From a virus: a stretch of 31,864 nucleotides of DNA. A program made the position numbers and the translations under genes. The notes below the pieces were generated by a model. It had not been told where the DNA came from. It saw only the letters and a list, made by a program, of their open reading frames with translations, and searched no databases. The stretch covers positions 1 to 31,864 of the IMG/VR virus record IMGVR_UViG_3300025449_000030. The stretch is one strand, 5' to 3'. Below, piece by piece: positions 11,198 to 30,986 of the stretch. How positions within the stretch are numbered: position 1 is the stretch's first letter; every line of letters starts with the position of its first letter.

Positions 11198-11213
11198 GTT
11201 GTATTTTTACAAC
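11198..11213. repeat. GTTGTA-N4-TACAAC palindrome, copy 2
   Basis: Perfect 16-bp palindrome GTTGTATTTTTACAAC, 21 bp upstream of the -35 of promoter copy 2. It includes the stop codon of the oxygenase gene ending at 11207. Identical to copy 3 at 14202-14217. Confidence 0.6.
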
Positions 11214-11878
11214 TTTACACAAGGACTTTCAAGAAAAAATTTCTTGTCGGCACCACTGCCTAAATGTAAATGTTCGGGATAAAGATCAAATGCTATACTA
11301 ATTCTTTCTTCGTTTCCTTGATAGGTATCAGTCCAATGAGTAATACACGATGGAAATAATGTAAGGAGGCCAGGAATATTTTTTTCTACCCAATGTTGAT
11401 CAGTATCGTATGGATAATCATAGTAGGTATTGGTATCTGTTGTTGCTACTGTAAAATGCCCGCTAAGGTAAGATTCAGGTTCTGCTCCATGATTATGAGC
11501 TTCTATCTTTTGTCCGTGTCGCATCACATTAGCCCAACATTTACCCCATACTGGCACTGGGGGCAATCCTATTTCTTTTCGAAAATTATCATGCTGTTCA
11601 CGCACCCAATTTTTAAAAAAAGTAAAAACAGGCTCTGACCAATCAAAAATATTATAGTAAGTAAATTTACCAGTCAGTGTTTCTGCGCCAAGCCCTGTGG
11701 AACCATCATGCCCTTTTCCGGAAAATTCCTCAATAATAGATTTTTCTTTACTTAAAATTATATCCTTCATATGCTGAACAATATCAATTGGATCGATAAA
11801 CTCAGAATATAAATGATAGTCCCACACAGGGGCAAAAGGAGTACGTCTAGGCGGACTTTGAAGTCTTGTTACGGGCAT
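11207..11878 (-). CDS. 2OG-Fe(II) oxygenase-like protein (HxH type), no. 1
   Basis: Start chosen at the ATG giving MPVTRLQSPP (223 residues); an earlier GTG/ATG-type start at 11914 would add 12 residues. The C-terminal half has the pattern of the 'putative 2OG-Fe(II) oxygenase' family of T4-like phages: KIEAHNHGAEPESYLSGHFTV (His128/His130), then GLLTLFPSCITHWTD (His181) and NEERISIAFDL (Arg192, the likely 2-oxoglutarate carboxylate ligand). Such enzymes use Fe(II), O2 and 2-oxoglutarate to hydroxylate a substrate, unknown here. The start lies inside the end of the upstream gene (32-base overlap). Confidence 0.78.
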   Translation of the reverse strand: MPVTRLQSPPRRTPFAPVWDYHLYSEFIDPIDIVQHMKDIILSKEKSIIEEFSGKGHDGSTGLGAETLTGKFTYYNIFDWSEPVFTFFKNWVREQHDNFRKEIGLPPVPVWGKCWANVMRHGQKIEAHNHGAEPESYLSGHFTVATTDTNTYYDYPYDTDQHWVEKNIPGLLTLFPSCITHWTDTYQGNEERISIAFDLYPEHLHLGSGADKKFFLESPCVKL

Positions 11879-12107
11879 AATTATCTTTTTTAGTTTTAGC
11901 TTCACCGAATTCACGGTATACGTAGTAATTGACTAAACTACGTTGTATCATAGTGATAAGATCACCATGATCCTCAGGAACAACAAATCTAACAGGACAA
12001 TGTCCCCAAGTGCCTGTTTGAACAAAATTGTAGTAATAATAACGATGTTCTTTGTTCTCAGGGTTGAATACCGTCCAGGGTCTTCCATATAGATTTAGTT
12101 TACTCAT
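11847..12107 (-). CDS. Hypothetical protein (86 aa)
   Basis: An 86-residue Tyr-rich protein (MSKLNLYGRPWTVFNPENKEHRYYYY...) ending in a basic tail. It is the first gene behind the promoter at 12128-12156, with SD AAGGAGAAAAG. It is coupled by overlap to the oxygenase gene downstream, so it may be a partner or substrate of it (inference). No domain recognised. Confidence 0.6.
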   Translation of the reverse strand: MSKLNLYGRPWTVFNPENKEHRYYYYNFVQTGTWGHCPVRFVVPEDHGDLITMIQRSLVNYYVYREFGEAKTKKDNYARNKTSKSA

Positions 12108-12127
12108 CTTTTCTCCTTGTTACAGTA

Positions 12128-12156
12128 ATTATAATGATGTTAATATTTAAAGTCAA
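12128..12156 (-). promoter_or_regulatory. Sigma-70-type promoter
   Basis: -35 TTGACT (12151-12156), 17-bp spacer, -10 TATAAT (12128-12133) on the - strand. The -35 overlaps the stop codon of the SleB-type hydrolase gene (12153). Drives 12107 and the oxygenase at 11207-11878. Confidence 0.8.
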
Positions 12157-12776
12157 TGGGCGATATCTTTATAAAAAATATGCGGGCCGGCCATAGCGAC
12201 TACTTCAGACTTTTTACCCCATTTTGGATGTACATACGTGGCATGATAATGCAAAATTCTATCACTATCCAACGGACGAACTCTGATACCGCCAATTAAA
12301 TTACGTGCTATGGTTTCGGCTAAATTCATTTGATCTTGACTCCAAATAACTTTTTTTCTTTCTAAGGTCCAAGAAAATTGAGCTTTGGCAAAAACAACTT
12401 GACATAAGCCATTTCCCCAACTGCCTTCCTTCAGGCGATTAATATGAATTTGACCAACAGCATATTGTGCAGGAATTTCAAGAGTACCGGCTTCCCGAAA
12501 AATACTATAAGCCAAACAATCAATATCTTTTTGTGTTTGTCCTTGTAAAGGTTTGGCTGTGAGTTTAATATCCTTAACTCCAACTTCTTTGATAGATTTA
12601 ATATTTTTGGCAACTTGAATTTTTGGGCGCATTTTAACTTGAGACAATACTTGTCGACTTATAAGAGACTTCTTAGTAACTGAAATAACGTTACCATTCG
12701 CATCCTCAGTCCACATAGCACCGGCTGTATTCGCAAGGGCCGCACCAATAGCTATGGTTGCTAATTTCTTTTTCAT
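12153..12776 (-). CDS. SleB-type cell-wall hydrolase (endolysin)
   Basis: This 207-residue protein has an N-terminal signal-like segment (MKKKLATIAIGAALANTAGA, 1-20), a linker, and a Hydrolase_2/SleB catalytic domain of about 85-207. Visible hallmarks are LAYSIFREAG (probable catalytic Glu95), VGQIHINRLKEGSWGNGLCQVV, QFSW, HYHATYVHPKW and AGPHIFY. SleB enzymes cleave the glycan backbone of peptidoglycan. With a signal sequence this would be a secreted lysin. The TAATG overlap with the small membrane peptide upstream makes the pair a likely lysis cassette. Confidence 0.85.
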   Translation of the reverse strand: MKKKLATIAIGAALANTAGAMWTEDANGNVISVTKKSLISRQVLSQVKMRPKIQVAKNIKSIKEVGVKDIKLTAKPLQGQTQKDIDCLAYSIFREAGTLEIPAQYAVGQIHINRLKEGSWGNGLCQVVFAKAQFSWTLERKKVIWSQDQMNLAETIARNLIGGIRVRPLDSDRILHYHATYVHPKWGKKSEVVAMAGPHIFYKDIAH

Positions 12777-12865
12777 TATTCTAAAATTTTATCAATAGCG
12801 GTAAAAACCAAACTCACAGATAACAGTCCCACACCAGATAACACAATAAGTGATGAAAAATCCAT
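12776..12865 (-). CDS. 29-aa single-span membrane peptide, holin candidate
   Basis: Translated by hand: MDFSSLIVLSGVG ... VFTAIDKILE, 29 residues. One hydrophobic segment (about 5-23) is followed by a short charged tail. A GGGAG SD lies 7 bases before the ATG. Its stop overlaps the lysin start (TAATG), and the pair has its own promoter at 12904-12932. Position directly before a lysin suggests a pinholin-like or holin role, or lysin regulation. Size is smaller than typical holins, so this is inference. Confidence 0.5.
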   Translation of the reverse strand: MDFSSLIVLSGVGLLSVSLVFTAIDKILE

Positions 12866-12903
12866 AAATGACTCCCTACTTAAAAATTAACTGCAATATG
12901 TCT

Positions 12904-12932
12904 ATTGTAGTATCAAAAGAATTACCCGTCAA
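12904..12932 (-). promoter_or_regulatory. Sigma-70-type promoter of the lysis pair
   Basis: -35 TTGACG (12927-12932), 17-bp spacer, -10 TACAAT (12904-12909). An imperfect GTAACTTTTTTACAAC palindrome lies just upstream at 12951-12966. A strong promoter for lysis genes implies either early expression or repression by a phage factor. Confidence 0.78.
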
Positions 12933-12970
12933 TCAAAATTGATTTCAAATGTAACTTTTTTACAACAAAT

Positions 12971-13528
12971 TTAATTAATATTCTCATAGGTTGATGAGAA
13001 TGTAAATCGAAATGTCGGAGCTCGCAACGTCATTGGTAATGCTTTATGAAGAATTGTACTATCAAAAATAACCAATCTTCCCGGTAAGAATTCAAGTATT
13101 AATTCAGGCTCGTTGTTATCATTATAAAAAATTGTTTCCCCGCCCCATTCTTTATTCCACTCATTATTCACGTAATAAAGTATTGTGATAGGATTTTTGT
13201 CAGTACCGGCGTCAGTATGAACGTAAAATTCCGATAAGTGTGTAGTACACGTGATCCAAGATCTAACTCTTCGTTTATTAAGAATAAACGATTTGATGGG
13301 ATTTGCAGAATTGGTATTAAAGATTCCAAATTTTAATAGATCATCTTCGGAAAACGGAGATGCTAAAAATTTACCTTGACTTTTAGAGAATAACGGAGTG
13401 ATAGGTGTAATAGCATAATAAGAATTTTGTGCGAAGATTTCAAAATTATACATTTCAATGGTATTAAATAATCCATCATATATTTGTATTTTTTTACCGT
13501 TTGACGTGATAATTTCTTTCGTGGGCAT
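12971..13528 (-). CDS. 2OG-Fe(II) oxygenase, prolyl-4-hydroxylase-like (HxD), no. 2
   Basis: This 185-residue protein has the full P4H-type core: FYVHTDAGTDKNPITILYYVN (His104, Asp106), WNKEWGGETIFY, FLPGRLVIFDSTILHKALP (His161) and TFRFTFSST (Arg174 as probable 2-oxoglutarate ligand). The family hydroxylates proline or other residues using Fe(II), O2 and 2-oxoglutarate. SD AAAAGGA precedes the ATG. Standalone gene between the lysis cassette and small genes. Substrate unknown. Confidence 0.82.
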   Translation of the reverse strand: MPTKEIITSNGKKIQIYDGLFNTIEMYNFEIFAQNSYYAITPITPLFSKSQGKFLASPFSEDDLLKFGIFNTNSANPIKSFILNKRRVRSWITCTTHLSEFYVHTDAGTDKNPITILYYVNNEWNKEWGGETIFYNDNNEPELILEFLPGRLVIFDSTILHKALPMTLRAPTFRFTFSSTYENIN

Positions 13529-13586
13529 GTTTATTCCTTTTATTATTTAATCAAGGAAATCTTCTTCATCTCTTTTTTACTTTAAA

Positions 13587-13901
13587 TTAAGTCTTTGCCA
13601 GTACCCGAGCAGGATGACGAATCTGCCCCTCATAATCTAACTGATCCTGTTCAAACTCAGTGAGAAAATCGTTTTCTACCAGGTTCCAGCCAATGATGTG
13701 TTCATTGTAGTATGCGGAATTTTCCTCCACCTGAGCACGAACGTCCAACATGATTTCTTGAGCTTCGCTAACGGTACTGACATTCAGTACAAAGTAATCG
13801 TTACCACCTTTGGCTTTCCAGTGTTCAGGGCACTCGCCTACTCCGTCCCAGTCGTGGGCCGCATAATTTTCGTACACTTGAGTTTGAAGATGTAGTTTCA
13901 T
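13587..13901 (-). CDS. Hypothetical protein (104 aa)
   Basis: A 104-residue acidic soluble protein (MKLHLQTQVYENYAAHDWDG...). The middle segment GNDYFVLNVSTVSEAQEIMLDVRAQ (given to show its regular helix pattern in part) suggests an alpha/beta fold. No family recognised. It follows the gene at 13911 by 9 bases and shares promoter copy 3. Confidence 0.6.
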   Translation of the reverse strand: MKLHLQTQVYENYAAHDWDGVGECPEHWKAKGGNDYFVLNVSTVSEAQEIMLDVRAQVEENSAYYNEHIIGWNLVENDFLTEFEQDQLDYEGQIRHPARVLAKT

Positions 13902-13910
13902 AATTATTCC

Positions 13911-14132
13911 TTAAACAAAATCGTAGGCATATTCACCGCGAACCGGTCCGTTCATTTTAACTTTTCCACTACCAAATTCAAAATTTAATCTATCAAAAAT
14001 GTTATCGGCAGTTTCTTTAGAGCAAGCGGCAAATAAAGTACCTGAATTCCCAAAAAATCCAGCATGTTCGTCGTCATTTAACAACGGGCGAGTAATGTAA
14101 CATACATGACTTTCAAATTCTAAACAATTCAT
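13911..14132 (-). CDS. Hypothetical early protein (73 aa)
   Basis: A 73-residue protein (MNCLEFESHVCYITRPLL...) directly behind promoter copy 3. The leader SD is AGGAGCCGAAA, the same module seen before 25261 and 26005. No domain recognised. Confidence 0.58.
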   Translation of the reverse strand: MNCLEFESHVCYITRPLLNDDEHAGFFGNSGTLFAACSKETADNIFDRLNFEFGSGKVKMNGPVRGEYAYDFV

Positions 14133-14138
14133 TTTCGG

Positions 14139-14191
14139 CTCCTAATTTCTTACTATGTGCATATTTTAGTGCCAATTGAATAATTCGTCAA
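14139..14191 (-). promoter_or_regulatory. Sigma-70-type early promoter with conserved leader (copy 3)
   Basis: -35 TTGACG (14186-14191), 17-bp spacer, -10 TAAAAT (14163-14168). The leader 14139-14170 is identical to copies 1, 2 and 4, and spacer plus upstream TTTTGG equals copy 2. Drives 14132 and 13901. Confidence 0.83.
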
Positions 14192-14201
14192 CCAAAATAG
14201 T

Positions 14202-14217
14202 GTTGTATTTTTACAAC
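14202..14217. repeat. GTTGTA-N4-TACAAC palindrome, copy 3
   Basis: GTTGTATTTTTACAAC, identical to 11198-11213, ending 10 bp upstream of the -35 of promoter copy 3 and 13 bases past the lipoprotein stop codon. Confidence 0.6.
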
Positions 14218-14230
14218 ATAAAAATTAATG

Positions 14231-14518
14231 CTAGATATTAGTGATAGTTTGTATACACCCGCCACCTATAGTCCAGTCATATTGAACAGTAAAATGTTGT
14301 GATGAAAATGTGTACAAGGTGCTGAATTCGCCTTTACTAGGCGGCAAAACCGTTTTTAAATCTGGTATACCCCAACTTTGAAAGTATGGAGTAGCCATAG
14401 AGTTTACTATGTTTATGACTGTACTGTCACATTGAGTGATAACAATAGGATTTTTTAGATTATCTTGTCCGCCACTGCAGGCTGATAATATTAATGATAA
14501 AAAAATTATGTACTTCAT
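14231..14518 (-). CDS. Small lipoprotein
   Basis: Start set at MKYIIFLSLILSACSGG (95 residues), seven codons inside the longest frame, because this gives a textbook lipoprotein signal with lipobox LSAC (Cys14). The mature part is soluble (VITQCDSTVINIVNS...). It would sit on the periplasmic side of a membrane. Candidate roles are superinfection exclusion or an outer spanin partner; nothing decides. The promoter -10 ends only six bases before this ATG, so the mRNA is probably leaderless. Confidence 0.68.
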   Translation of the reverse strand: MKYIIFLSLILSACSGGQDNLKNPIVITQCDSTVINIVNSMATPYFQSWGIPDLKTVLPPSKGEFSTLYTFSSQHFTVQYDWTIGGGCIQTITNI

Positions 14519-14524
14519 ATGCCT

Positions 14525-14553
14525 AGTATACAGCGGCATTTGATTAGGTACAA
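14525..14553 (-). promoter_or_regulatory. Sigma-70-type promoter giving a leaderless transcript
   Basis: -35 TTGTAC (14548-14553), 17-bp spacer, -10 TATACT (14525-14530), then six bases (AGGCAT) and the ATG of the lipoprotein. The start codon falls at the expected transcription start. Confidence 0.65.
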
Positions 14554-14559
14554 TGACTT

Positions 14560-14593
14560 ATTACAGTAATTACATTTGATTACAGTTATTACA
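14560..14593. repeat. Tandem 15-bp direct repeat next to lipoprotein promoter
   Basis: ATTACAGTAATTACA (14560-14574) and ATTACAGTTATTACA (14579-14593), one mismatch, 19-bp period, so nearly two helical turns. They sit directly upstream of the -35. The spacing suits a dimeric regulator binding twice. Confidence 0.55.
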
Positions 14594-15656
14594 ACAAATT
14601 ACGTTTCTTAAGTACTTCTAAAGACTTCACGGCAGAATTGGCCCAAGAAAATTTTGTACGAATAATTTCACTATTTTTAATGGCTTGTGTACTCAATATG
14701 GAATATTCATCATAAGCTTTACGCATACTAACTCTAATATCTTTTATTGTGGGTACTGCCCATTTACCAAAGTTTCCATCTGGGGCAGGATAAAATTCTT
14801 GATATTCCGGGCAAGATATTTCTTTAAGGTCATATTGTACAGCAACACAAGATGACATAATATCTTTTAAAAATTCTGTATGTCCTGAATAAAATGTTGT
14901 GATCAAAGGCAACCCGCATGCGGCTGCTTCGATTAAAGGAAGACCCCATCCTTCAGCTTTGGTTGGGAATACAAAAACATCCGATCTTCTGTAAAGATTT
15001 GATAATTGTAGTAAAGTTTGATGACCCCAAACTAATTTAATATTTGAACAATTTAAATCTTTAATTATTTGATTTAATTCATTATATTTTTCAGTTGGAT
15101 TCCGAAAAAAATCTGATTTAACAACTAGCTCAAATTTATCATCATTGCCAAATTCATCAGCAAAAGCAGTCAGTGTCTCTGTGATACTTTTACGTATTTC
15201 GCTTTTTCCAATGAATAAAAATCTAAAAGGTCTAGTTTCTTGAAATTTTAAATAAGGATGAAAAATTGAACCATCTACGCCTTCGGGCACAACTTCAATT
15301 TTATTACTATCACACCCATTTTCTATAGCAATTTTACGTCCCCATTCACTGGGTACCCATAGGTTGTGATCAGCTATTGCTTCTATTAAAGAACTGGGTA
15401 TTCGAGTAGATTCAAAAACTCCCCAATTGATATTTGTACCATGGAAAAAATTATTAAGATTACAAACAACTAATGCTAGATTAATATCTCCGGACTGGCT
15501 TTCTTTTGCGGCTTTATAAATAGCATCATTATCTTGAAAATTAATGAATTCAATAATTTGATTTATACCGCCTATTTGTTTTAAGGCATTAGTGTAATTT
15601 TGATAGTGAGTGCCTATTCCCGAATCATTCGGTTGGCCAATAATTCTAAATTTCAT
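14589..15656 (-). CDS. GT4-type glycosyltransferase
   Basis: This 355-residue protein has the GT-B fold of family-4 glycosyltransferases. The N-terminal Rossmann part (1-135) includes SGIGTHYQNY near the start and VVPEGVD at 123-129. The C-terminal part has FRFLFIGKSEIRKS (145-157) and the donor-site motif AEGWGLPLIEAAACGLPLI with the E-x7-E pair Glu235/Glu243. It would transfer a sugar from a nucleotide-sugar. Phage members decorate DNA, capsid proteins or host surface. No SD is evident. It lies downstream of the 376-aa protein gene with 42 bases between. Confidence 0.87.
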   Translation of the reverse strand: MKFRIIGQPNDSGIGTHYQNYTNALKQIGGINQIIEFINFQDNDAIYKAAKESQSGDINLALVVCNLNNFFHGTNINWGVFESTRIPSSLIEAIADHNLWVPSEWGRKIAIENGCDSNKIEVVPEGVDGSIFHPYLKFQETRPFRFLFIGKSEIRKSITETLTAFADEFGNDDKFELVVKSDFFRNPTEKYNELNQIIKDLNCSNIKLVWGHQTLLQLSNLYRRSDVFVFPTKAEGWGLPLIEAAACGLPLITTFYSGHTEFLKDIMSSCVAVQYDLKEISCPEYQEFYPAPDGNFGKWAVPTIKDIRVSMRKAYDEYSILSTQAIKNSEIIRTKFSWANSAVKSLEVLKKRNLL

Positions 15657-15698: not shown

Positions 15699-16829
15699 TT
15701 AAAGTAATTCCCAGCTAATAAATTGTGGGTTTCTCAGACTTTGTACGCGAGCGGTTGGGTTTGATGCAAACATACCATTGGCATATCTCATATAGATATC
15801 AAGGCTGGCGGCATCATCTGAATCTGCTCTGCCAATATCTGCTAAAAATAATTGACTGGTCCCATCAGCTTCGCCGTAACGAATACCTTTTAATACTAAG
15901 TCTTGAGCTTCTTGAGCACTTGGCACATAATACAAACTCTTAGGAGTACAATAATAATACGGAGCAGGACCAAACCTTAACATTTGTGCTAGGGCTTTAT
16001 TACCTTTTAAATGTGTTTCAATAATAGTTTCGTAAGATTTAGCGATAGCAGTAAACAAAGGACGAGCATAATCTTTTTTTGTTTGCCAATGTGCCTGAAA
16101 CCAGTCTCCAAATGGTCTTTGCCAAGCGGCATTTGTTTCAATACTATTCAAAATTTTATCAGCTGGCCAATCAATTGTTTGAATAGCACCTGATGCTTTT
16201 CCTACGCATTTAAATGTGTTAGTTTTAGAAATATAAGTTACAGTAAATCTGGGATCTTTAGTGAAATAAGGTTCATCTGGAACACTTTGGGCTATTCCCA
16301 ATACTTCAGAGAATATTTTTTGTTTCATATCATCGTATTCATCTTTGGCATAATGACTAAAACCGTCCATACCTCTTGGTACTTCAATACCTAGTGAAGT
16401 AGGGGTTAAATTTGCCAGTGTAATACCTGCTTCTGCTTTAATTGAAATGCCTGCGGTTAATCCTGATTCAAACTGAATATCTGTTACCCCACCGGCAATA
16501 TTTGCTCCGGCAACCCAGCCTAAGCGAGTCGGTGCTTCTCCTTGCTTTGCTATTATTTTTCCTCGAATTTCTTTTCCTCTGGCTGCCCAAGACATGAATA
16601 ATTCTGATTTGTAAACTGGCCCTAAATATTTTTTAATATCGTTATAGGTCTGATCAGGGTTAATTAAAATAGAATTAGGTATAGTGTCTTGTGGATTTTT
16701 AATATCAAATGTCCCGTTACCTACTAACCCATAAAGAATTCCAACTTCACTATTATAGCGTATTTCTTTAGATGATTTATTTTCAACATCATCTTCGTTT
16801 ATTTTTTTAGTAACTTCAAATATTTTCAT
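15699..16829 (-). CDS. Conserved-looking phage protein, possible PD-(D/E)xK-like core, unknown function
   Basis: Start set at MKIFEVTKKINEDD (376 residues) rather than the longest frame, because an AATAAATA late-promoter-like box ends 7 bases upstream. The region GGVTDIQFESGLTAGISIKAE is reminiscent of the beta-hairpin D...xIK core of PD-(D/E)xK nucleases, but the canonical acidic residue before x-K is replaced by Ser, so activity is doubtful. The N-terminus resembles the short leader of T4 head-targeted proteins in size and composition. Product could be an internal head protein or a nuclease-like factor. Not recognised with confidence. Confidence 0.6.
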   Translation of the reverse strand: MKIFEVTKKINEDDVENKSSKEIRYNSEVGILYGLVGNGTFDIKNPQDTIPNSILINPDQTYNDIKKYLGPVYKSELFMSWAARGKEIRGKIIAKQGEAPTRLGWVAGANIAGGVTDIQFESGLTAGISIKAEAGITLANLTPTSLGIEVPRGMDGFSHYAKDEYDDMKQKIFSEVLGIAQSVPDEPYFTKDPRFTVTYISKTNTFKCVGKASGAIQTIDWPADKILNSIETNAAWQRPFGDWFQAHWQTKKDYARPLFTAIAKSYETIIETHLKGNKALAQMLRFGPAPYYYCTPKSLYYVPSAQEAQDLVLKGIRYGEADGTSQLFLADIGRADSDDAASLDIYMRYANGMFASNPTARVQSLRNPQFISWELL

Positions 16830-16836
16830 AATAGTA

Positions 16837-16844
16837 TATTTATT
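16837..16844 (-). promoter_or_regulatory. T4-type late promoter box (degenerate)
   Basis: AATAAATA on the - strand, seven out of eight bases of TATAAATA, followed by seven bases and the ATG of the 376-aa protein. It is divergent from the perfect box at 16903-16910. Confidence 0.5.
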
Positions 16845-16902
16845 AATTTTTTGTGCTGATTTCTTTTTCAATATTATGCTGTTAATTAAATTAATATTCA
16901 AT

Positions 16903-16935: not shown

Positions 16936-17784
16936 ATGATAGCACAAAATTTACCAGTATATACTTCGGAAAAAGACCCAAACTATGTAGCACAAATGGC
17001 TATAAATGCTATTCCTAAATATCACTGGAAGGCTAGTCCGCCAAATCTTCAATTCCCAATATACAATCAGGTTGCTCCGTCTATAACCCCGACAATTGTT
17101 GATTTAAGACCTTATGCTAGTCCAATAGATGATCAAGGTAATTTAGGATCTTGTACTGGAAATGCTATTGCTGGGGCAATTGATTTAGTAGACTACGAAA
17201 ATAAAAAATCAGAAAGAGTCAGTCGCTTATTCATTTATTATCAAGAACGTGTAATAGAAGGAGATATAACAAAAGACAACGGAGCTTATATTCATGACGG
17301 TATTACTGCTTGTAGTCAAACTGGAGCACCGTTAGAATCATTATGGCCTTATACTGTAAGTAAATTCGCAGTTCAGCCCAATCAAACGGCATACACAGAT
17401 GCCGCTAAACGTAAAGTAACTGGGTACAGTAAATGTAATAATTTTGCCGCTGTAAAAACTGCTCTTGCCAATAAAGCACCGGTAGTGATTGGATTTTATG
17501 TCTACAGTAGTTTTGAATCGGGAACTTGGTGGCAACCACGTGGCACAGGCTTGATGCCTTATCCTAATACAAGAACTGAGCAACTTTTAGGCGGCCATGC
17601 CGTATGTATTGTGGGATACAACGATAATTTAACCGGACCTGCTGGCAAAGGTTATTTTATTGTTAGAAATAGCTGGGGCACCAGTTGGGGGCAACAAGGA
17701 TATTTTTATATGCCTTACTCTGTAATACAAAATACGTCTATGAGTAGTGATTTTTGGGCTATCACTTCTGTGGCTAATCCTTAA
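16936..17784 (+). CDS. Papain-family (C1) cysteine protease
   Basis: This 282-residue protein has the full C1 catalytic set. DQGNLGSCTGNAIAGA gives oxyanion Gln67 and nucleophile Cys73, GGHAVCIVGYND gives His221, and VRNSWGTSWGQQGYFYMPY gives Asn245. There is no signal peptide; the first 50 residues could be a short propeptide or virion-docking part. C1 proteases occur on several large phages and may cut host surface or phage structural proteins. A perfect late promoter lies upstream. Its TAA shares a TTAA with the stop of the convergent methyltransferase gene. Confidence 0.88.
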   Translation: MIAQNLPVYTSEKDPNYVAQMAINAIPKYHWKASPPNLQFPIYNQVAPSITPTIVDLRPYASPIDDQGNLGSCTGNAIAGAIDLVDYENKKSERVSRLFIYYQERVIEGDITKDNGAYIHDGITACSQTGAPLESLWPYTVSKFAVQPNQTAYTDAAKRKVTGYSKCNNFAAVKTALANKAPVVIGFYVYSSFESGTWWQPRGTGLMPYPNTRTEQLLGGHAVCIVGYNDNLTGPAGKGYFIVRNSWGTSWGQQGYFYMPYSVIQNTSMSSDFWAITSVANP

Positions 17785-18459: not shown

Positions 18460-19392
18460 TTAACAATTCCAAATATAAATTTTATCCTGCTTTTTTTTGC
18501 CTTTTTTCTGTCCCATTTGTTGTAATAAATCTTCTTCATCATCGCATGGTGGCAAACCAAATAATACTGCGTCTTCATACATTTTTGGACTGATGTTAAA
18601 AGCCACGTGACCGCCCTTTTTAATATTATCTACACATTTTCTCCAAAGCGGAATAAAGAAATTCAAATAAAATAATTTTTCATTATCCCATGGTTCCATA
18701 TGTTCATATATTTCTAAATTAATATATGGAGGCGATGTTAAAACAAAATCATAATTAATTGTGCTAAAATCAACATCTAAACAACTTTGCCAATACATCT
18801 TTAATTTACTGGGATTCGCTTGAATAGTTAATAAAGGATTTATTTCAATATCTCGAGAAAGATAATTAATCATATTATCATATGCCGTCTTCATTTCTAT
18901 ATTAGTATCAATACCCGTATATTCTATTCCTAAACTATGAGCCGCTAACATGCGTCCTCCCCACCCGGCGGTGGGATCTAATACTGCTTGAGCACGATAT
19001 TTTTTATAAAGATATTTGGCAGTTGTGGCTTTAAACATCACAACAGCGCCCAAATTAATTCTAAAACACTCAAATATATTTCCCCCGGGAGTGCGGCCGC
19101 CCCTATTTCTTTTTTTAGTACTTTCAAGTAATTTTTGTTTTAATTCAAGATTATTCCAAATATCATAAATTGTTTTACCGTCTTCTCTGCGACATTTTAA
19201 TAAATTCTTAAACTGAAAATGATAAAGAAATCTATTTCCAGCAAAAGAATTTTTATTTGTATCACCTGTGAATTTATCCAGACTTTTTAAGTCAGCATTT
19301 AATTCTTTATCAGTAATTAATTTATGATTTTCGATATCTTGTATTGTAACAATATCTAAATTATCATTAATTGTTCGAATTTTTGTTGCCAT
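18460..19392 (-). CDS. DNA methyltransferase (amino-MTase, SPPY type)
   Basis: This 310-residue protein has motif I DPTAGWGGRMLAA (139-151) before the catalytic TSPPYINLEIYE (SPPY at 220-223). This order, with a (S/D)PPY motif, marks N6-adenine or N4-cytosine methyltransferases. GGHVAFNIS follows as a late strand. No target-recognition domain or endonuclease partner is obvious. The HNH gene lies immediately upstream. Likely role is to protect phage DNA from host restriction or to mark it. A TATATAAT box lies five bases before the ATG. C-terminus is lysine-rich. Confidence 0.82.
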   Translation of the reverse strand: MATKIRTINDNLDIVTIQDIENHKLITDKELNADLKSLDKFTGDTNKNSFAGNRFLYHFQFKNLLKCRREDGKTIYDIWNNLELKQKLLESTKKRNRGGRTPGGNIFECFRINLGAVVMFKATTAKYLYKKYRAQAVLDPTAGWGGRMLAAHSLGIEYTGIDTNIEMKTAYDNMINYLSRDIEINPLLTIQANPSKLKMYWQSCLDVDFSTINYDFVLTSPPYINLEIYEHMEPWDNEKLFYLNFFIPLWRKCVDNIKKGGHVAFNISPKMYEDAVLFGLPPCDDEEDLLQQMGQKKGKKKQDKIYIWNC

Positions 19393-19409: not shown

Positions 19410-19835
19410 TTAAGTCTTTAAATCAATCATATCTGCTAATCCACGCAATCTTTCCGCATCTTCAGCTCCATACATGGCATTTTTGGCAGTATTACAACGA
19501 TTACAAAGAATTTGATAATTTTCTATGCTGTCTGCTCCCCCGCGGGTTGTGGGAACAATATGATCCAGGCTGGGCATATTATCACTGGCTTTTTTGCCCT
19601 TAATATTTCCCCCTAAACTATAATCTAATACGTTCCCACATCGCAGATTAGCACATTTTTCCCCGCATATTGCTCGCATGGCGTCATGTCCCGCACGACG
19701 TGTTCTATGATTTTTACCTACCCATACATGTCGCATGGCTGTGGCAGCATCTTCGCCCGCATCTAATGCCTCTACAAATCTTTTAAATGTAGCGGCATTA
19801 CCATAGGTTTTTTTATTATATCCTAATTGTATCAT
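19410..19835 (-). CDS. HNH endonuclease
   Basis: Start set at ATG 19835 (141 residues); a TTG four codons upstream touches the ParB-like stop. The C-terminal half has an HNH fold with zinc cysteines: C57, C66, then LDHIVPTTRGGADSIENYQILC (Asp91-His92, Asn106, shown in part) and the CNRCNTAKN knuckle (Cys111, Cys114). The N-terminal 55 residues resemble a helical DNA-binding region. It may be a homing endonuclease or the nuclease part of the ParB/DNA-methyltransferase neighbourhood. Confidence 0.85.
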   Translation of the reverse strand: MIQLGYNKKTYGNAATFKRFVEALDAGEDAATAMRHVWVGKNHRTRRAGHDAMRAICGEKCANLRCGNVLDYSLGGNIKGKKASDNMPSLDHIVPTTRGGADSIENYQILCNRCNTAKNAMYGAEDAERLRGLADMIDLKT

Positions 19836-19847
19836 TTCGTGGTCCAA

Positions 19848-20840
19848 TTAAGATTTAATTACTGACATTTTTAAATCTTTAAATGGTCTACGCCCATTTA
19901 CAATATCAATACCCTTTACTTGTTCATAAACACTTAAAATACCCGAAGCCATTTTACTTTCGGCATCAATACTGGTAGTTTCTAAATCCACCCGACATTG
20001 TTCTTGTACAGCATTAAATAATACTTTAGCATCTACTACACCAGATTCGTCGACATAACGAACTTTTACAGTACGAATAATATCATCGAATAAATCATCT
20101 TTATATGATTTATTTTCTTTTAATAATTTACGAATTTGTAGCAGTCCACGAAGTGTATCTGTTTGAATATATTTCGTGGGCCAGTGTTGTTTCATTTTAA
20201 TAAGGCCAAATTTTAATTCAGATAATTTAAATGTATCCCGAATAATATATAAATGTCCAATATTAGTAATACAGCCAGCACTACGTTTACGATAACTAAT
20301 TTGACAATTAGCATCATTTACGGTATTTTCCAAATCTACGGCTTCTTGAATGCCCATAATTACTTCTTGTTTATGAATAAAATATGGCTTCATGGGCTCA
20401 TTTTCCGTATTAAGAGCCAATAACATTACACTTTCAGTGTTTTCATCCTCGGATTCAATATAACAAATGGGCACATGGCTTCCGGGTCCATATTTTAATA
20501 CCCAAGCTATTCCATGTTGTTGTCCGTCGGCAATATAATATCTATCTTCTTCCCTACTATATCGTGCTTGTAAAGGTGTAGCACAGATAATATTCCATTT
20601 AGTTAATAATTTTTTAATATGTGGGGGTTCGGGCCAACGTTGTCTGCGATAATTAATATAGCATTTTTCCACAGGTGCCCAGACAAAGTTTAATATATTC
20701 TCATAATCTCTGTTGGTATTTTGGGGAAATTCGCCCCCAGTGGCATCATTTACTGCTTGGGCCACCGATATCAAACTGACTCGATGACTTGATGAGCCAG
20801 CAGATGGGTCAAAGGCTTCTGTTTTATGTTTTTTACTCAT
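19848..20840 (-). CDS. ParB-like (DGQQH) domain protein
   Basis: This 330-residue protein carries a ParB/Srx-like N-terminal nucleotide-binding/nuclease domain, with RYYIADGQQHGIAWVLKYG (DGQQHG at 105-110) as the diagnostic motif. The C-terminal half is helical and unrecognised. ParB-like domains bind CTP or cleave DNA, and such genes often sit with DNA methyltransferases and HNH nucleases in phages. It is first in a line of four - strand genes (to 17781), behind a sigma-70-type promoter and a GGAGG SD. No ParA partner or parS-like repeat is seen. Confidence 0.72.
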   Translation of the reverse strand: MSKKHKTEAFDPSAGSSSHRVSLISVAQAVNDATGGEFPQNTNRDYENILNFVWAPVEKCYINYRRQRWPEPPHIKKLLTKWNIICATPLQARYSREEDRYYIADGQQHGIAWVLKYGPGSHVPICYIESEDENTESVMLLALNTENEPMKPYFIHKQEVIMGIQEAVDLENTVNDANCQISYRKRSAGCITNIGHLYIIRDTFKLSELKFGLIKMKQHWPTKYIQTDTLRGLLQIRKLLKENKSYKDDLFDDIIRTVKVRYVDESGVVDAKVLFNAVQEQCRVDLETTSIDAESKMASGILSVYEQVKGIDIVNGRRPFKDLKMSVIKS

Positions 20841-23412: not shown

Positions 23413-23608
23413 AGATATTTACTCCTCTTAGGTCTAGTTCACGTTCCAATAGTGTAATACAAACTTGATCAAGAATGCCTTTTGAAGCAAGTGTGCGATA
23501 TTGATCAAGACGTTGAATAACTTCGCTGTCAGTAGCTGTGTCAAACCAGTCAAATAGGTTTTGTACTACTGGATGATTTTGTGCTCGTTTACTGGAAAAG
23601 CCTGTCAA
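23405..23608 (-). CDS. Small helical hypothetical protein, TTG start
   Basis: Start set at TTG 23608 (67 residues, (M)TGFSSKRAQNHPVVQNLF...) because AAAGGAG lies six bases upstream. The longest frame starts at a GTG (23695) and would overlap the oxygenase by over 100 bases with no SD. Here the overlap is 20 bases. The product is helical and charged (RLDQYRTLASKGILDQV), without recognised motif. Confidence 0.5.
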   Translation of the reverse strand: MTGFSSKRAQNHPVVQNLFDWFDTATDSEVIQRLDQYRTLASKGILDQVCITLLERELDLRGVNIYE

Positions 23609-24176
23609 TTTCCGCTCCTTTAATGTCGAATAAAAAATTAATGACCGATCTAATTTTAGTTGTTTGAGGTGATGCCGCTGAATGGATTTGCCCACTGTTA
23701 AAACAGACTAGCCTACCCTGCTTGGGTTGTACTCTATCTACAACTGTAATTGTGCTGTCAAAAAATACTGTATCCCCATCACTGTCATTGACGTAGTATA
23801 TGCAGTTTAACAAGTTGGGATCTACATGATCCACATGTGGTGTCCTGTACATTGTGCTGTCTGCCATTGGCCAATTAGCATTGACTTTAACTCTTAAGGG
23901 AACGGTTTGTATGCCAAACAGTTTGTTAATTTCTTCTATTACAGGCACCACTTCCTGCCAGTAATGACTGTTAACCCCGCCCATGACATGCTCGTATAGT
24001 ACGTGGACCAGCTGTGGTCCTTCCCTAGTATTACTGTCCGGGAAGCTATCTAAGGGGCAGGGCGGTTCGTCTACTGATGAGGGGTATAAAAACCATGGGA
24101 AGTCACCGTGTAATATTGAGTCTTTGATTGCCTGTTGACGGCTTTGAGAAACAATGTTGTCAATGACTTTGATCAT
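23589..24176 (-). CDS. 2OG-Fe(II) oxygenase (HxD), no. 5
   Basis: This 195-residue protein carries MYRTPHVDHVDPNLLNCIYYVN (His114, Asp116, shown in part), SDGDTVFFDSTI, PKQGRLVCFNSGQIHSA (His165) and KIRSVINFLFD (Arg176). This fits the cyanophage-type 2OG-Fe(II) oxygenase/P4H family. The ATG overlaps the TGA of a membrane protein gene (ATGA), making it part of a coupled - strand series back to 24942. Substrate unknown. Confidence 0.82.
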   Translation of the reverse strand: MIKVIDNIVSQSRQQAIKDSILHGDFPWFLYPSSVDEPPCPLDSFPDSNTREGPQLVHVLYEHVMGGVNSHYWQEVVPVIEEINKLFGIQTVPLRVKVNANWPMADSTMYRTPHVDHVDPNLLNCIYYVNDSDGDTVFFDSTITVVDRVQPKQGRLVCFNSGQIHSAASPQTTKIRSVINFLFDIKGAEIDRLFQ

Positions 24177-27452: not shown

Positions 27453-27475
27453 GGACGCTTGCCGCGTCCTTTTTT
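27453..27475 (+). terminator. Strong intrinsic terminator without an evident + strand gene
   Basis: Stem GGACGC / GCGTCC with a five-base loop, then TTTTTT on the + strand. On the other strand there is no T run. All neighbouring genes are on the - strand. Confidence 0.8.
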
Positions 27476-27482
27476 GGCGTCA

Positions 27483-27564: not shown

Positions 27565-27662
27565 CTCTGTCGCGTATATTCTGGCCCCAGGGGTTGAAAA
27601 CTTCAACTGAAATTTTTTCCCCCTTTTGAAAATGCATGCATGCAATTTTTCTTGTCGCTACA
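27565..27662. other. Non-coding stretch with TGCATGCATGCA
   Basis: Contains TGCATGCATGCA (palindrome) around 27632-27643 and C/T-rich runs. A 67-codon frame crosses the repeat and terminator here but has no expression signals. No supported gene from 27370 to 27662. Confidence 0.5.
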
Positions 27663-28247
27663 CTATAGTCGGCGGTAACCTATATTGAATACTGCCGTAA
27701 TCCTGCCCTCTCCACTATGATTAATCAAAACTTCATGGCTTAACCAACTGGGCCACATTAAAATTAAGCCTGGTTCTGGTTCAATGTCATAGTATCTCCA
27801 GTTTAATACGTGTTCTTCTTTTACCGGCCACTGTTGAAAACTGGTGTATTGTCTGGGGTCGTACAGTCTCAATCTACCACTGTTTGGGGGTGTACTCAAG
27901 TACATTACACCCGATAGTTGGCTTTCGGGATGTTCGTGTTTGCCATGTCTGTCTCCCTCAAACATCTCACTGAAGAACGTATCCACCTGCAGATACTGTT
28001 TCATAACTTTACTGTCAAATCCCATGCTGTCGAGATAGTTATCAGCGTAGCCAATTATTCGTTGATTAAACTTATCTACACTGTTATTTGCCGTGAGGTC
28101 ACAACTGTAGGTATTACGGTAATTCCAAGTGTTGGTCAAGTTGTTGGTATCGGCTAACAGGTCTTTTGCCACTTCTAGCATTTCCTCGCCTAATTCTCTG
28201 TCTAGATAGTATCCAATGGTTGTGGGGAATAATTTTAAATGGTTCAT
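27663..28247 (-). CDS. 2OG-Fe(II) oxygenase-like protein (HxH type), no. 6
   Basis: This 194-residue protein has GDRHGKHEHPESQLSGVMYLS (His104/His106, shown in part), SGRLRLYDPRQ, GLILMWPSWLSHEV (His171) and GRITAVFNIGY (Arg182). Same family as the genes at 11207, 20914 and 30336. No SD; an ATTAAATA box ends six bases before the ATG, so a leaderless late transcript is possible. Divergent from the oxygenase at 28376. Confidence 0.82.
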   Translation of the reverse strand: MNHLKLFPTTIGYYLDRELGEEMLEVAKDLLADTNNLTNTWNYRNTYSCDLTANNSVDKFNQRIIGYADNYLDSMGFDSKVMKQYLQVDTFFSEMFEGDRHGKHEHPESQLSGVMYLSTPPNSGRLRLYDPRQYTSFQQWPVKEEHVLNWRYYDIEPEPGLILMWPSWLSHEVLINHSGEGRITAVFNIGYRRL

Positions 28248-28352
28248 TTAACATATTTAATATTTCTATATTTCTACTCTTTATTATCTAACGTCTATCG
28301 CGCTTGCACTTCGTGCGTGGGTCTTGTTTTCAATAGCTTGACCCCGTTAGCT
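28248..28352. other. Divergent intergenic region with hairpin
   Basis: Holds GCAC-TTC-GTGC (28304-28314) in a longer imperfect stem, followed by GTCTTGTTTT. Could be a + strand terminator. Otherwise AT-rich. Confidence 0.4.
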
Positions 28353-28360
28353 TATAAATA
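28353..28360 (+). promoter_or_regulatory. T4-type late promoter box
   Basis: Perfect TATAAATA, 15 bases before the ATG of the oxygenase at 28376, with an AAAGGAAA SD. Confidence 0.75.
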
Positions 28361-28375
28361 TCTCAAAGGAAATAT

Positions 28376-28951
28376 ATGGACCAATTTATATTAGAGTACA
28401 AAAACGCTTTTACCCGGGAATATTGTAATAGTGTTATTGAATACTATGAAAACGCAGTATCCGCTGGGTTTGGGTACACACGTAAACAAGTATCGGATAC
28501 ACCCGCTCAATACATCGATGACACCGCAGTCTTTGCACACAGTGAATACACTATTAAATTAGATCATTCATGGGATTTGGTGAGGCATTTTTCTTCGATA
28601 TTTTGGCGTGATTGTTACTCAAAATATATCAGTCAAGTGCCGTCGGTGAGTAATATGACTGAACAGGGTATTTTCACTTACAAAATACAAAAAACTTTGC
28701 CCGGGCAAGGCTATCACGTTTGGCATCATGAGGTTGACGGTAAATCAACTTGTCAAAGGACCATGGCCTGGATGCTGTACTTGAATGATGTTGAAGAGGG
28801 CGGGGAAACTGAATTCCTCTATCAACGATGTCGTATTCGGCCTACTGCGGGCACTGTGGTAATGTGGCCCGGGTATTATACACACATTCATAGAGGTAAT
28901 CCACCATTGAGTGGTCCTAAATATATTGTTACTGGAAATTTAGAATTTTAA
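28376..28951 (+). CDS. 2OG-Fe(II) oxygenase, P4H-like (HxE), no. 7
   Basis: This 191-residue protein carries GQGYHVWHHEVDG (His117, Glu119), MAWMLYLNDVEEGGETEFLY, AGTVVMWPGYYTHIHRGNPP (His170/His172) and PKYIVTGNLEF (Lys182). A close paralogue of the gene at 29743, with a 40-base stretch that differs at one base, and related to 22066. Behind a perfect late promoter. Fe(II)/2OG hydroxylase of unknown substrate. Confidence 0.85.
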   Translation: MDQFILEYKNAFTREYCNSVIEYYENAVSAGFGYTRKQVSDTPAQYIDDTAVFAHSEYTIKLDHSWDLVRHFSSIFWRDCYSKYISQVPSVSNMTEQGIFTYKIQKTLPGQGYHVWHHEVDGKSTCQRTMAWMLYLNDVEEGGETEFLYQRCRIRPTAGTVVMWPGYYTHIHRGNPPLSGPKYIVTGNLEF

Positions 28952-28962
28952 TGAGTGTAATT

Positions 28963-28970
28963 TATAAATA
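28963..28970 (+). promoter_or_regulatory. T4-type late promoter box, leaderless
   Basis: Perfect TATAAATA, then ACTAC and the ATG of the acetyltransferase-like gene. T4 late transcription starts about six bases past the box, which is at the ATG. Confidence 0.72.
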
Positions 28971-28975
28971 ACTAC

Positions 28976-29677
28976 ATGAGATCACGTGAATTCACTGACG
29001 AAGCTATTATTAAAATTCCTCAAATAGATTTTGAGGCGGATGATAACAATTTGCCCACTGGTAAAAAATTAAAACAGTATCTTGCTCAAAGTCGCAGATT
29101 AACTGATCAATTGGTCTACACCGTGGATAAAACCGGCGCATGGTATGGCTCGGGCATAGACATGTTTATTTTTAAAGAGGGTCAGACAGTGGGATGGATA
29201 AATGTCTACCCGGTCTTAGACTGGCCAACACAGCCTGCTTATACTGTGCCATCTATTATGGTTCGGACTGCTGCTCGAGGACAGGGAATTAGCAAATTGC
29301 TTTATCAGTTGGTATTCACTGAACTAAAAGGCTGTATACTAGCCGGGGAACAACAGACACCTGGCGGACGACGTAATTGGGTCGCTCTAAACAGTACTCC
29401 CGGGGTGCGTGTATATGGGTGGGCATCATTGGATCAAAAATATCTGCAGCGTATGAAAAAATTTAAAGTACAAGATAAATTTAATGCTAATTTGGAAAAA
29501 AACGGGGCTAAATTATTGGGTAATGCTCGAGGACAGGATTTTTATATATTTCCTGTGGCTGCCGAACGTAACATACTAGAACCCTTGATAACAAAAACAT
29601 TTAAACTTTATCAGCCCAATCCCTATAACAGCGATTCCTATGTTCATACCGGCTTAGTGGCGTATTCCAATAATTAA
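28976..29677 (+). CDS. GNAT-like N-acetyltransferase with head-targeting-like leader
   Basis: This 233-residue protein has GNAT motif A in SIMVRTAARGQGISKLLYQLV (RGQGIS at 101-106, the acetyl-CoA pyrophosphate loop, shown in part), preceded by strands GWINVYPV. The N-terminus MRSREFTDEAIIKIP resembles the capsid-targeting leader of T4 internal proteins (MKTYQEFIAEA), raising the possibility that it is packaged in the head and injected (inference). The ATG directly follows a perfect late promoter, without SD. Lies between two oxygenase paralogues. Confidence 0.7.
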   Translation: MRSREFTDEAIIKIPQIDFEADDNNLPTGKKLKQYLAQSRRLTDQLVYTVDKTGAWYGSGIDMFIFKEGQTVGWINVYPVLDWPTQPAYTVPSIMVRTAARGQGISKLLYQLVFTELKGCILAGEQQTPGGRRNWVALNSTPGVRVYGWASLDQKYLQRMKKFKVQDKFNANLEKNGAKLLGNARGQDFYIFPVAAERNILEPLITKTFKLYQPNPYNSDSYVHTGLVAYSNN

Positions 29678-29742
29678 TTTTTATTGAGCAATTTTTCTTT
29701 CAATAAATACCCCGTTAGTTTTAACATCTATATAACATACTC
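29678..29742 (+). promoter_or_regulatory. Late-promoter-like box AATAAATA (29702-29709)
   Basis: AATAAATA (7 of 8 match to TATAAATA), 33 bases before the ATG of the oxygenase at 29743. CCCCGTTAG follows it; the same word precedes the perfect box at 28353. A second weak box TATATAAC lies closer to the ATG. No SD is present. Confidence 0.45.
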
Positions 29743-30339
29743 ATGAACAATATTACTCATAACGATTTTATCGGCGTTTACCATAATGCTTTTTCCGATA
29801 GTTTTTGTCAACGTGCAATTAAGTATTTTGAAACCGTGCGCCAAGCTGGATTAACCGCTACACGCCAACAAGTAAATCCACAACATAATCGACTGGAAAA
29901 ACATGACGATACTTTAATTATTCCCGACGAAGAAACTATGAGTCTTGAGGGATCTAAAGAATTAACCAAACAATTTCTTGATATTTTTTGGAAGGAATGT
30001 TATGCCAAATATGTAGAAGAATTTTCTATATTAACTTACTATGACAGTCATAAAATTGCCAATTATAAAATACAGTGCACCCCGATAGGAGGTGGATATC
30101 ATTTATGGCATTGCGAGCACGGAAATATTGCCAGTAATAATAGAATTTTAGCTTGGATGCTGTACTTGAATGACGTTGAAGAGGGCGGGGAAACAGAGTT
30201 TATTTATCAGCGTCTACGTATAAAACCAACAGCTGGTACTATGTTAGTATGGCCAGCAGGGTTTACTCATGTACATAGAGGTAATCCACCCTATAGTAAT
30301 AGCAAATATATTATCACTGGTTGGGTAGAATTTAGTTAA
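29743..30339 (+). CDS. 2OG-Fe(II) oxygenase, P4H-like (HxE), no. 8
   Basis: This 198-residue protein has GGGYHLWHCEHGN (His123, Glu125), LAWMLYLNDVEEGGETEFIY, AGTMLVWPAGFTHVHRGNPP (His176/His178) and SKYIITGWVEF (Lys188). N-terminal halves of this gene and the 28376 gene align only loosely while their C-terminal halves are almost identical. The stop shares a TTAA with the convergent gene at 30336. Confidence 0.85.
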   Translation: MNNITHNDFIGVYHNAFSDSFCQRAIKYFETVRQAGLTATRQQVNPQHNRLEKHDDTLIIPDEETMSLEGSKELTKQFLDIFWKECYAKYVEEFSILTYYDSHKIANYKIQCTPIGGGYHLWHCEHGNIASNNRILAWMLYLNDVEEGGETEFIYQRLRIKPTAGTMLVWPAGFTHVHRGNPPYSNSKYIITGWVEFS

Positions 30340-30986
30340 TCAGTAACCTCAATGTAAATATTCCCACTCACTGATATCCTATATTCGTCACTGGTATAAA
30401 AAGGATAAACACAATGGTTTAGTCCGGACGGGAACATTACCATTTTACCATTAAATGTTCGATCTACCGGAATATTTTGTTGACCAATTTTACCTAGATT
30501 ATTAATAAATATAAAAGAAAAATGACCCGGGCATAGGCTATTAGAATTTACTGAACTAGGGTGAGCTATTTCATCATTGATATCATAGGGTACATTAATC
30601 CATAATACAAAACTTAACACTCCCGAATGATTGTGTATGGGATTGAACTCGTATTTTTTTTGAAAGTTAACCCATATTCCGCCTAGTTTAAATCTATAGT
30701 TTTTATCACGTATTCCTTGATCAGATAGATATCCTTTTGCCATATCACAATGTGAATTATATGTATATGCTAAATTAGTTGTTAGATTTTCCACATGTTC
30801 TCGACAGTCATATAACCCATATTCATGCTGAATATTTCCCGCTAACTGCTTGTTTCGAGAATCTGCTTGACTAAAATCTTGCTGAATTTTTTTTATCTCA
30901 TCATGAATAGGTTTTAGTTGTTCATCAGTAAGGACGGTATGTATTATTCCGGGGTTTGATAAAGTTAAATAAGTGACTTCATTCAT
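30336..30986 (-). CDS. 2OG-Fe(II) oxygenase-like protein (HxH type), no. 9
   Basis: This 216-residue protein has NPIHNHSGVLSFVLWINVP (His118/His120), GKMVMFPSGLNHCVYP (His191) and EYRISVSGNIYIE (Arg203), the HxH-type pattern of the phage 2OG-Fe(II) family. The loop between strands (138-175) is longer than in its paralogues. Seven bases after the 53-aa gene and probably in its transcript. Confidence 0.78.
   Translation of the reverse strand: MNEVTYLTLSNPGIIHTVLTDEQLKPIHDEIKKIQQDFSQADSRNKQLAGNIQHEYGLYDCREHVENLTTNLAYTYNSHCDMAKGYLSDQGIRDKNYRFKLGGIWVNFQKKYEFNPIHNHSGVLSFVLWINVPYDINDEIAHPSSVNSNSLCPGHFSFIFINNLGKIGQQNIPVDRTFNGKMVMFPSGLNHCVYPFYTSDEYRISVSGNIYIEVTD

Follow-up and report, generated by a model that had tools for sequence, protein, structure and literature searches.

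Nine Oxygenase-Like Genes in the Window

Nine open reading frames (ORFs) of the Fe/2-oxoglutarate (2OG) oxygenase fold families were confirmed, with their coordinates and strands, within 20 kb (11207–30986) of the 31,864-base record IMGVR_UViG_3300025449_000030 of an uncultured phage. This record, probably a fragment, is referred to as a whole as the window. With a probability of roughly 0.55, these genes encode varied, small, single-domain protein hydroxylases that were gathered piecemeal and have each their own target. The window does not represent a new system; it illustrates well a habit of such phages that is known but unexplained.

The nine genes, named below by their first position, were as follows:

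11207–11914, minus strand: PF13759-type, 235 aa, GTG start; Pfam 44.7 bits; phrog_81 (1.6e-27); HxH (H140, H142), distal H193, R204
12971–13528, minus strand: PF13640-type, HxD...H...R, 185 aa; Pfam 44.1 bits
20914–21513, minus strand: PF13759/TIGR02466-type, HxH...H...R, 199 aa; Pfam 81.4 bits
22066–22653, minus strand: PF13640, prolyl 4-hydroxylase (P4H)-like, HxE...H...K, 195 aa; Pfam 39.5 bits; phrog_61 (1.7e-43)
23589–24176, minus strand: PF13640/phrog_274 type, HxD...H...R (H114, D116, H165, R176), 195 aa; Pfam 31.5 bits
27663–28247, minus strand: PF13759/TIGR02466-type, HxH...H...R, 194 aa; Pfam 82.4 bits
28376–28951, plus strand: PF13640, P4H-like, HxE...H...K, 191 aa; Pfam 40.4 bits; phrog_61 (2.5e-42)
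29743–30339, plus strand: PF13640, P4H-like, HxE...H...K (H123, E125, H178, K188), 198 aa; Pfam 50.5 bits
30336–30986, minus strand: PF13759-type, HxH...H...R, 216 aa; Pfam 39.2 bits

All nine proteins exceeded the Pfam cut-off (27 bits) with E-values between 3e-23 and 3.5e-7, and therefore these matches are not due to chance. Four of them (11207, 20914, 27663, and 30336) matched PF13759 (2OG-FeII_Oxy_5; 39.2–82.4 bits), and the other five (12971, 22066, 23589, 28376, and 29743) matched PF13640 (2OG-FeII_Oxy_3; 31.5–50.5 bits). The PHROG search agreed with this division: all four HxH genes matched phrog_81, phrog_61 was matched by 22066, 28376, and 29743, and phrog_274 by 23589 and, more weakly, by 12971. 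The claim of nine oxygenase-like genes in 20 kb, which had been made in an original prediction from the letters of the sequence alone, was thus borne out. The same nine genes were recovered by six-frame searches of the window, and no tenth oxygenase was found by an iterated profile search over its ORFs of at least 50 codons. Their spacing is uneven, with two genes at 11.2–13.5 kb and seven at 20.9–31.0 kb.

The TIGR02466 cut-off (62.5 bits) was passed by 20914 (87.3 bits) and 27663 (73.8 bits), and 11207 (33.2 bits) and 30336 (23.4 bits) scored below it. The cut-off of the NCBIfam FlmC family (NF052475, 240 bits) was reached by neither 12971 (75.9 bits) nor 23589 (18.4 bits), and no paper on the substrate of this family appeared among the literature matches listed. 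Against the PDB, sequence matches were to prolyl 4-hydroxylases for 12971 (6t8m, E 0.0013) and 29743 (the bacterial enzyme 3itq, E 9e-9), and 27663 matched the bacterial proteins 2rg4 (E 4.8e-14) and 3bvc (E 7.2e-14). Matches in phage records numbered 173 for 20914 and 443 for 29743.

Active Sites and Predicted Folds

The original prediction had divided the genes into an HxH type and a P4H-like type comprising the rest. This division was correct as far as the HxH genes are concerned, but the rest proved to consist of two types, HxE...H...K (22066, 28376, and 29743) and HxD...H...R (12971 and 23589). The sequences of these five carry the 2-His-1-carboxylate triad and the basic residue for 2OG. 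With this complete HxD/E...H...R/K site, the five PF13640 proteins should bind Fe(II) and 2OG.

The conservation of the site residues was counted in viral and phage ORFs (those of the window included), which were assigned to types with profiles from early iterations and then reduced to non-redundant sets. In the PF13759 type, HxH was present in 184 of 189 ORFs (the remainder being two HxF, two HxQ, and one gap) and HxD/E in none; the distal His was found in 179, and the basic position was occupied by Arg in 152 and by Lys in 14. In the 29743 type, HxE (63/129) and HxD (60/129) were almost equally frequent and the distal His nearly invariant (127/129), and the 23589 type had HxD in 93 of 102. 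The HxHP signature of the PF13759 genes is also present in the solved bacterial relatives 2rg4 and 3bvc. The four PF13759 proteins probably bind iron via three histidines. As they lack a carboxylate ligand, the label "2OG-dependent" derives in their case from the fold together with the Arg that they conserve.

Structure prediction, which had been proposed as a check of the double-stranded beta helix (DSBH), showed this fold in both proteins that were modelled, 11207 and 23589; the other seven are placed by sequence family. The AlphaFold2 model of 11207 was a jelly roll (pLDDT 80, pTM 0.80; residues 1–27 poor), and that of 23589 reached a pLDDT of 91 and a pTM of 0.90. Foldseek matched 11207 to 3bvc and 2rg4, followed by prolyl hydroxylases and others. 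In VIA-align, this protein gave a Z of 17.1 with 2rg4 (181 residues, 3.3 Å) and of 16.3 with the Pseudomonas putida P4H in complex with EF-Tu (182 residues, 3.6 Å), values that count as tied because they are no more than 1 Z apart. For 23589, Foldseek placed structures of the HIF prolyl hydroxylase PHD2 first, at an E of about 2e-8. Those of the closest fold matches whose substrates are known, namely PHD2, OGFOD1, and the P. putida P4H with EF-Tu, act on proteins. The substrate of OGFOD1 is a ribosomal protein.

The two modelled proteins thus have the jelly roll in common with the prolyl hydroxylases (HIF PHD2/EGLN, P. putida P4H, and 3itq), and five of the nine share the HxD/E...H...R/K site; they differ in that identity over the fold is about 8–21% and that the substrates of the window proteins are predictions only. 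The closest solved structures by sequence to 27663 and to the PF13759-type profile are 2rg4 and 3bvc (Oceanicola and Roseovarius; PF13759/TIGR02466), which have the same HxHP but are bacterial. Both were deposited as uncharacterized, and therefore provide no clue to a substrate.

Origin and Integrity of the Set

In an all-against-all comparison of the nine proteins, 9 of the 36 pairs could be aligned (at least 60 residues, E ≤0.01), eight with an identity of 25–32% and one (28376/29743) of 47%. One local or recent tandem expansion is ruled out by the 25–32% identities, 28376/29743 being a possible exception. Among the ORFs gathered, the best relative of 22066 was in the cyanophage S-SCSM1 (48%), those of 20914 in S-CREM1 and S-RIM44 (35%), those of 29743 and 28376 in the contigs L011/L012 (47–52%), and those of 11207, 12971, 23589, 27663, and 30336 in other contigs (32–36%). 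A tree of 41 rows set 22066 apart from 28376 and 29743 (support 100/99); the latter two fell in one clade without being resolved as sisters. Since the nearest relatives are in different phages, the set looks as if it had been gathered piecemeal from a pool common to other phages and not grown in place, with at most one recent duplication, perhaps that of 28376/29743. Five of the window proteins were compared with a collection of phages, and no match attained 60% identity. Pattern scans of viral contigs for close relatives returned the near-identical contig described below for 20914, one weak relative for 12971, and none for 11207.

The record IMGVR_UViG_3300025435_000173, which is separate but possibly comes from the same sample, matches the last 15,453 bases of the window with 2 mismatches and carries all seven genes from 20914 on. 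A further contig, L010 (96.7–98.5% identity), keeps 27663, 28376, and 29743 together with a diverged 30336. These two records make an assembly error unlikely from 16.4 kb on, a check that covers seven genes and not 11207 or 12971. Between the two copies of 30336, dN was 0.12 and dS 0.34 and the site residues were kept, indicating purifying selection and a functional gene. Codon changes in 28376 and 29743 (7 and 4) were too few to judge selection. Just beyond the position of the window's end, L010 (5958–7123) has small ORFs of the "MNERIRxL...FAELIVREC" kind, a kind that occurs in aquatic T4-like phages and that may hint at the lineage.

Comparison With Other Phages

Nine such genes in about 20 kb had been called extreme. 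This did not hold: equal or higher numbers are found both in isolated marine phages and in other viral contigs. In the excerpts of the publications used here and below, 24 2OG-Fe(II) oxygenase genes are given for S-SCSM1 (PMC9602691), ten for S-CREM1 (PMC9964418), and none to five for each of 16 earlier T4-like cyanophages (PMC3037559); oxygenases of the superfamily are tabulated for 76 of 153 cyanophage genomes (PMC10452541), and tandem copies occur in published genomes, for example ORFs 213–216 of Nanhaivirus ms29 (PMC10436341). Profiles grown from the window genes detected 122 in eight cultured phages, at 8–23 per genome: S-SCSM1 (21), S-RIM44 (12), Sf-CH1a (14), S-SSM7 (23), syn9 (12), HTVC008M (20), Mosig (12), and S-CREM1 (8). 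Accessory genes of this superfamily are common in marine phages.

The 173 stretches searched include the window itself, its six sub-loci, and duplicate contigs; nearly all were recruited by oxygenase similarity, so they are not a random sample. Among them, the window has a high rank, but not the top one. As many genes or more were packed into shorter spans in L123 (12 genes in 9.1 kb) and L122 (10 genes in 8.0 kb), both of one lineage, and in L109 (9 genes in 5.0 kb). Arrays of 8–12 oxygenase genes were found at L123:2119-11249, L109:2216-7237, L132:1270-12384, and L154:9704-18427, and three of these four (L123, L132, and L154) contain one to three halogenase-like genes each.

Like the window, the clusters of L122/L123, L132, and L154 are mixed, with genes of the PF13759-like type adjoining those of the PF13640-like type; they differ in being tighter and in their halogenase-like genes. 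The sets of the T4-like cyanophages S-SCSM1 and S-CREM1 are similar to that of the window in their combination of PF13640 and PF13759, in the low identity between copies, and in having several copies in tandem. By contrast, the copies of the window are scattered among small ORFs, no halogenase was seen, and identity to phage proteins was below 60% for the five proteins compared.

Two observations are new to us, namely that the PF13759 type keeps strictly to the HxH...H pattern over 189 phage and viral ORFs, and the statistical association with halogenases described below. Among the literature matches listed, which represent part of the literature only, no paper on the HxH site, on oxygenase-halogenase clusters, or on phage fibre hydroxylation was apparent by title or abstract. 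No demonstrated target of a marine-phage oxygenase is named in the excerpts of PMC9602691, PMC3037559, PMC9964418, PMC11561400, PMC10452541, PMC12774648, and PMC10436341. The comparison makes three points testable: hydroxylation in cells infected by phages with 8–23 copies, the halogenase link, and the question of three-histidine iron and 2OG use at the HxH site.

Genomic Context of the Oxygenase Genes

Two neighboring features of the window were considered:

1–6557, plus strand: fibre-like and lectin-like genes, ending 4.6 kb ahead of the first oxygenase gene; possible substrates only
28976–29677, plus strand: GNAT acetyltransferase-like gene between two P4H-like genes (Acetyltransf_1, 21.0 bits; cut-off 20.7)

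In the first of them, the ORF at 1–4455 has a C1q-like end below the Pfam cut-off, that at 4459–5841 matched Laminin_G_3 (104.8 bits), and both 4459–5841 and 5838–6557 matched phrog_8510, a virion structural protein. Other genes of the window encode a pirin, a cell-wall hydrolase, a glycosyltransferase, a papain-like protease, and a DNA-methylase-like protein (18460–19392).

In relatives, the clusters are located in regions of late or structural genes: in the vicinity of genes annotated as fibre or structural in S-SCSM1, Sf-CH1a, syn9, and Mosig, adjoining neck genes in HTVC008M, and after a gene annotated as collagen-like in S-CREM1. In L123/L122, L109/L119, L132, and L154, the oxygenase runs adjoin ORFs that are fibre-like or structural by eye, and PHROG confirmed some flanking ORFs as tail fibre (L123 and L154) or virion structural (L109 and L096). 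Three tests of position were carried out. In eight genomes, no enrichment was detected in the neighborhood of large ORFs, with the minimum length set to 700, 900, or 1200 aa (p 0.15 to 0.92 in nine settings). The neighborhood of gp13 was significant in the five genomes that had suggested the idea (p 0.0025 at 5 kb and 0.0037 at 10 kb), but this association was not replicated in seven other genomes with gp13 (p 0.49 and 0.55, respectively); the replication set comprised nine records, two of them without gp13, and one (G016) had already been seen with oxygenases beside gp13. Tail-fibre PHROG matches were obtained for 4 of 20 flanking ORFs and 1 of 19 controls, which is not clearly different. There were 23 flanking ORFs of at least 150 aa around 14 cluster lineages (one lineage had none), and 20 were searched, leaving out L154:14142-15572 and L132:4984-6504, both halogenase-like, and L111:7526-7987; 20 controls were drawn and one, which crossed a stretch border, was dropped. 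As the three tests did not reproducibly show a proximity beyond chance, the suggestion of a modification programme dedicated to fibres or capsid found no confirmation.

A different neighbor was found in the relatives. Within 5 kb of a PF04820 flavin halogenase gene lay 39 of 136 oxygenase genes, against 14.8 expected when positions were rotated (p 0.0002, and 0.00005 in a second run), in genomes that are partly related and several of which were chosen for having a halogenase, Sf-CH1a having been chosen for an already-seen neighboring oxygenase. At least one near pair was present in 9 of the 10 genomes or contigs used, and the effect was weaker at 3 kb (p 0.017). PF04820 also matches in 5 of 14 control genomes, and therefore only matches with E ≤3.5e-77 were used. 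Matches were found in 13 of 19 records, and the test left out the incompletely retrieved contigs G017 and G018 and the weak partial matches in S-SCSM1 and S-SSM7. After adding the weak matches, the count at 5 kb was 40 of 157 (17.0 expected, p 0.0001). It was 31 of 147 (14.8 expected, p 0.002; 3 kb, p 0.11) when G016 was left out, and 27 of 133 (12.6 expected, p 0.004; 3 kb, p 0.23) when Sf-CH1a was left out as well. No PF04820 halogenase match was detected in the window, the record being a fragment.

Proposed Function of the Nine Enzymes

Most of the nine proteins are probably post-translational hydroxylases of peptidyl residues, a reading in which iron and 2OG use, protein substrates, and timing are all predicted. 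Nine small DSBH-fold enzymes would be made during infection; five would use Fe(II) and 2OG and the four PF13759 proteins a three-histidine iron site, and each would act as the hydroxylase of a site of its own in host or phage proteins. The choice of proteins as substrates follows from the best-characterized fold and sequence neighbors (PHD2, P. putida P4H, and 3itq), which hydroxylate proteins, and the nine divergent active sites point to several substrates rather than to one metabolic sink for 2OG. In the excerpt of a published structural survey, phage proteins of the phrog_61 type resemble human EGLN3 (PMC12774648).

Several points weigh against this reading. The activities and substrates of all nine are predictions only, and fold models cover 11207 and 23589, that is, two of nine. 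The four PF13759 genes, with HxH in place of a site containing Asp or Glu, do not conform to the classic 2-His-1-carboxylate pattern, and the proteins might not use 2OG. TlxI, PolD, and AsqJ, which are natural-product enzymes, were also among the fold matches, so the fold alone does not fix the substrate. Moreover, the halogenase association in relatives fits small-molecule or peptide tailoring as well.

Among the alternatives, the maturation of virions ranks highest, although it is rather unlikely. The enzymes, together with the halogenases in relatives, would tailor tail-fibre or other virion proteins and so alter adsorption or stability. The fibre and structural genes beside the oxygenase runs of the contigs and phages named above, the virion-structural-like genes ending 4.6 kb ahead of 11207, and the tail-fibre matches of 4 of the 20 flanking ORFs are in its favor; the lack of enrichment near large ORFs (p 0.15 to 0.92), the unreplicated gp13 link, and the controls (1 of 19, not clearly different) count against it. 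The tailoring of small molecules or peptide products, with flavin halogenases in relatives, is less likely still. The excess of oxygenases near PF04820 genes favors it, as do the natural-product oxygenases among the fold matches and the resemblance of 12971 to FlmC, far below that family's cut-off, and, barely, to the peptide-maturing YhhC (E 0.048). However, no halogenase was detected in the window, no biosynthetic scaffold enzyme was recognized among 20 further window proteins that were searched, and the halogenase link weakens at 3 kb, above all in the reduced sets (p 0.11–0.23), with several records picked for their halogenases.

An effect through metabolism, in which the consumption of 2OG shifts the host nitrogen signal (NtcA), appears improbable. 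Uncoupled 2OG turnover is normally slow, nine divergent active sites would not be needed for it, and four of the nine may not be 2OG enzymes. The idea was proposed for cyanophages from the number of oxygenase genes and from NtcA sites (excerpt of PMC3037559). Modification or repair of nucleic acids is the least probable of all. It would agree with two PHROG annotations, "DNA endonuclease V" and "DNA endonuclease", carried by phrog_274 and phrog_2297, and with the DNA-methylase-like gene at 18460–19392, but at E 0.1 Pfam gave no match to AlkB or Tet/JBP for any of the nine, and the endonuclease labels conflict with the 2OG profile matches and with the PHD2-like fold of 23589. The reading as varied protein hydroxylases, each with its own target, is preferred. 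It might, with low probability, be extended to a modular tailoring kit carried by aquatic phages of several lineages, consisting of variable, divergent hydroxylases (many of them HxH), often with halogenases, that would place many side-chain modifications on proteins of phage or host in the course of infection; the window would be an instance of this kit lacking a recognizable halogenase.

Putatively Mislabelled Genes and Other Observations

By Pfam, the proteins bearing the endonuclease labels of phrog_274 and phrog_2297 are oxygenases, and for 23589 the modelled fold agrees. The syn9 gene annotated as "minor coat protein" (L175:15939-16550) matched DUF6445, with PF13640 below the cut-off.

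Genes annotated as ferrochelatase were observed beside oxygenase genes in Mosig, HTVC008M, Sf-CH1a, and syn9 (L177:6467-7237, L176:2037-2678, L173:11126-11707, and L175:17128-17670). None of the four had any Pfam match at E 0.1, and hence none to ferrochelatase. Relatives of the Mosig gene have HxD in 51 of 51 and the distal His in 47 of 51, and 27 of its 92 matches are also in the gathered 2OG set, an overlap that may be due to profile drift. The profile comparison by hhalign lent an oxygenase weak support (probability 3%, E 0.013), and no relevant match came from searching the sequences of the PDB. These genes are probably mislabelled oxygenases, judging by the HxD...H pattern and the overlap with the 2OG set. 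If so, the co-occurrence of ferrochelatase and 2OG genes reported in the excerpt of PMC11561400 would be affected.

The remaining observations concern other ORFs of the window. The ORF at 15699–16901 (400 aa) had no Pfam or PHROG match; it has a 99% match in the near-identical contig, and its one other relative (51%) belongs to a contig of 105 kb that showed no 2OG gene. At E 0.01, neither Pfam nor PHROG matched 6602–7678, in which the stretch CLAEGTLI... resembles a Hint/intein-type motif. The ORF at 19848–20840 (330 aa) adjoins an HNH endonuclease gene (19410–19847); it had no PHROG or NCBIfam match and, by eye, resembles ParB-like proteins. Finally, 16936–17784 encodes a cysteine protease of the papain family (C1; 70.7 bits) on the strand opposite to that of its neighbors.

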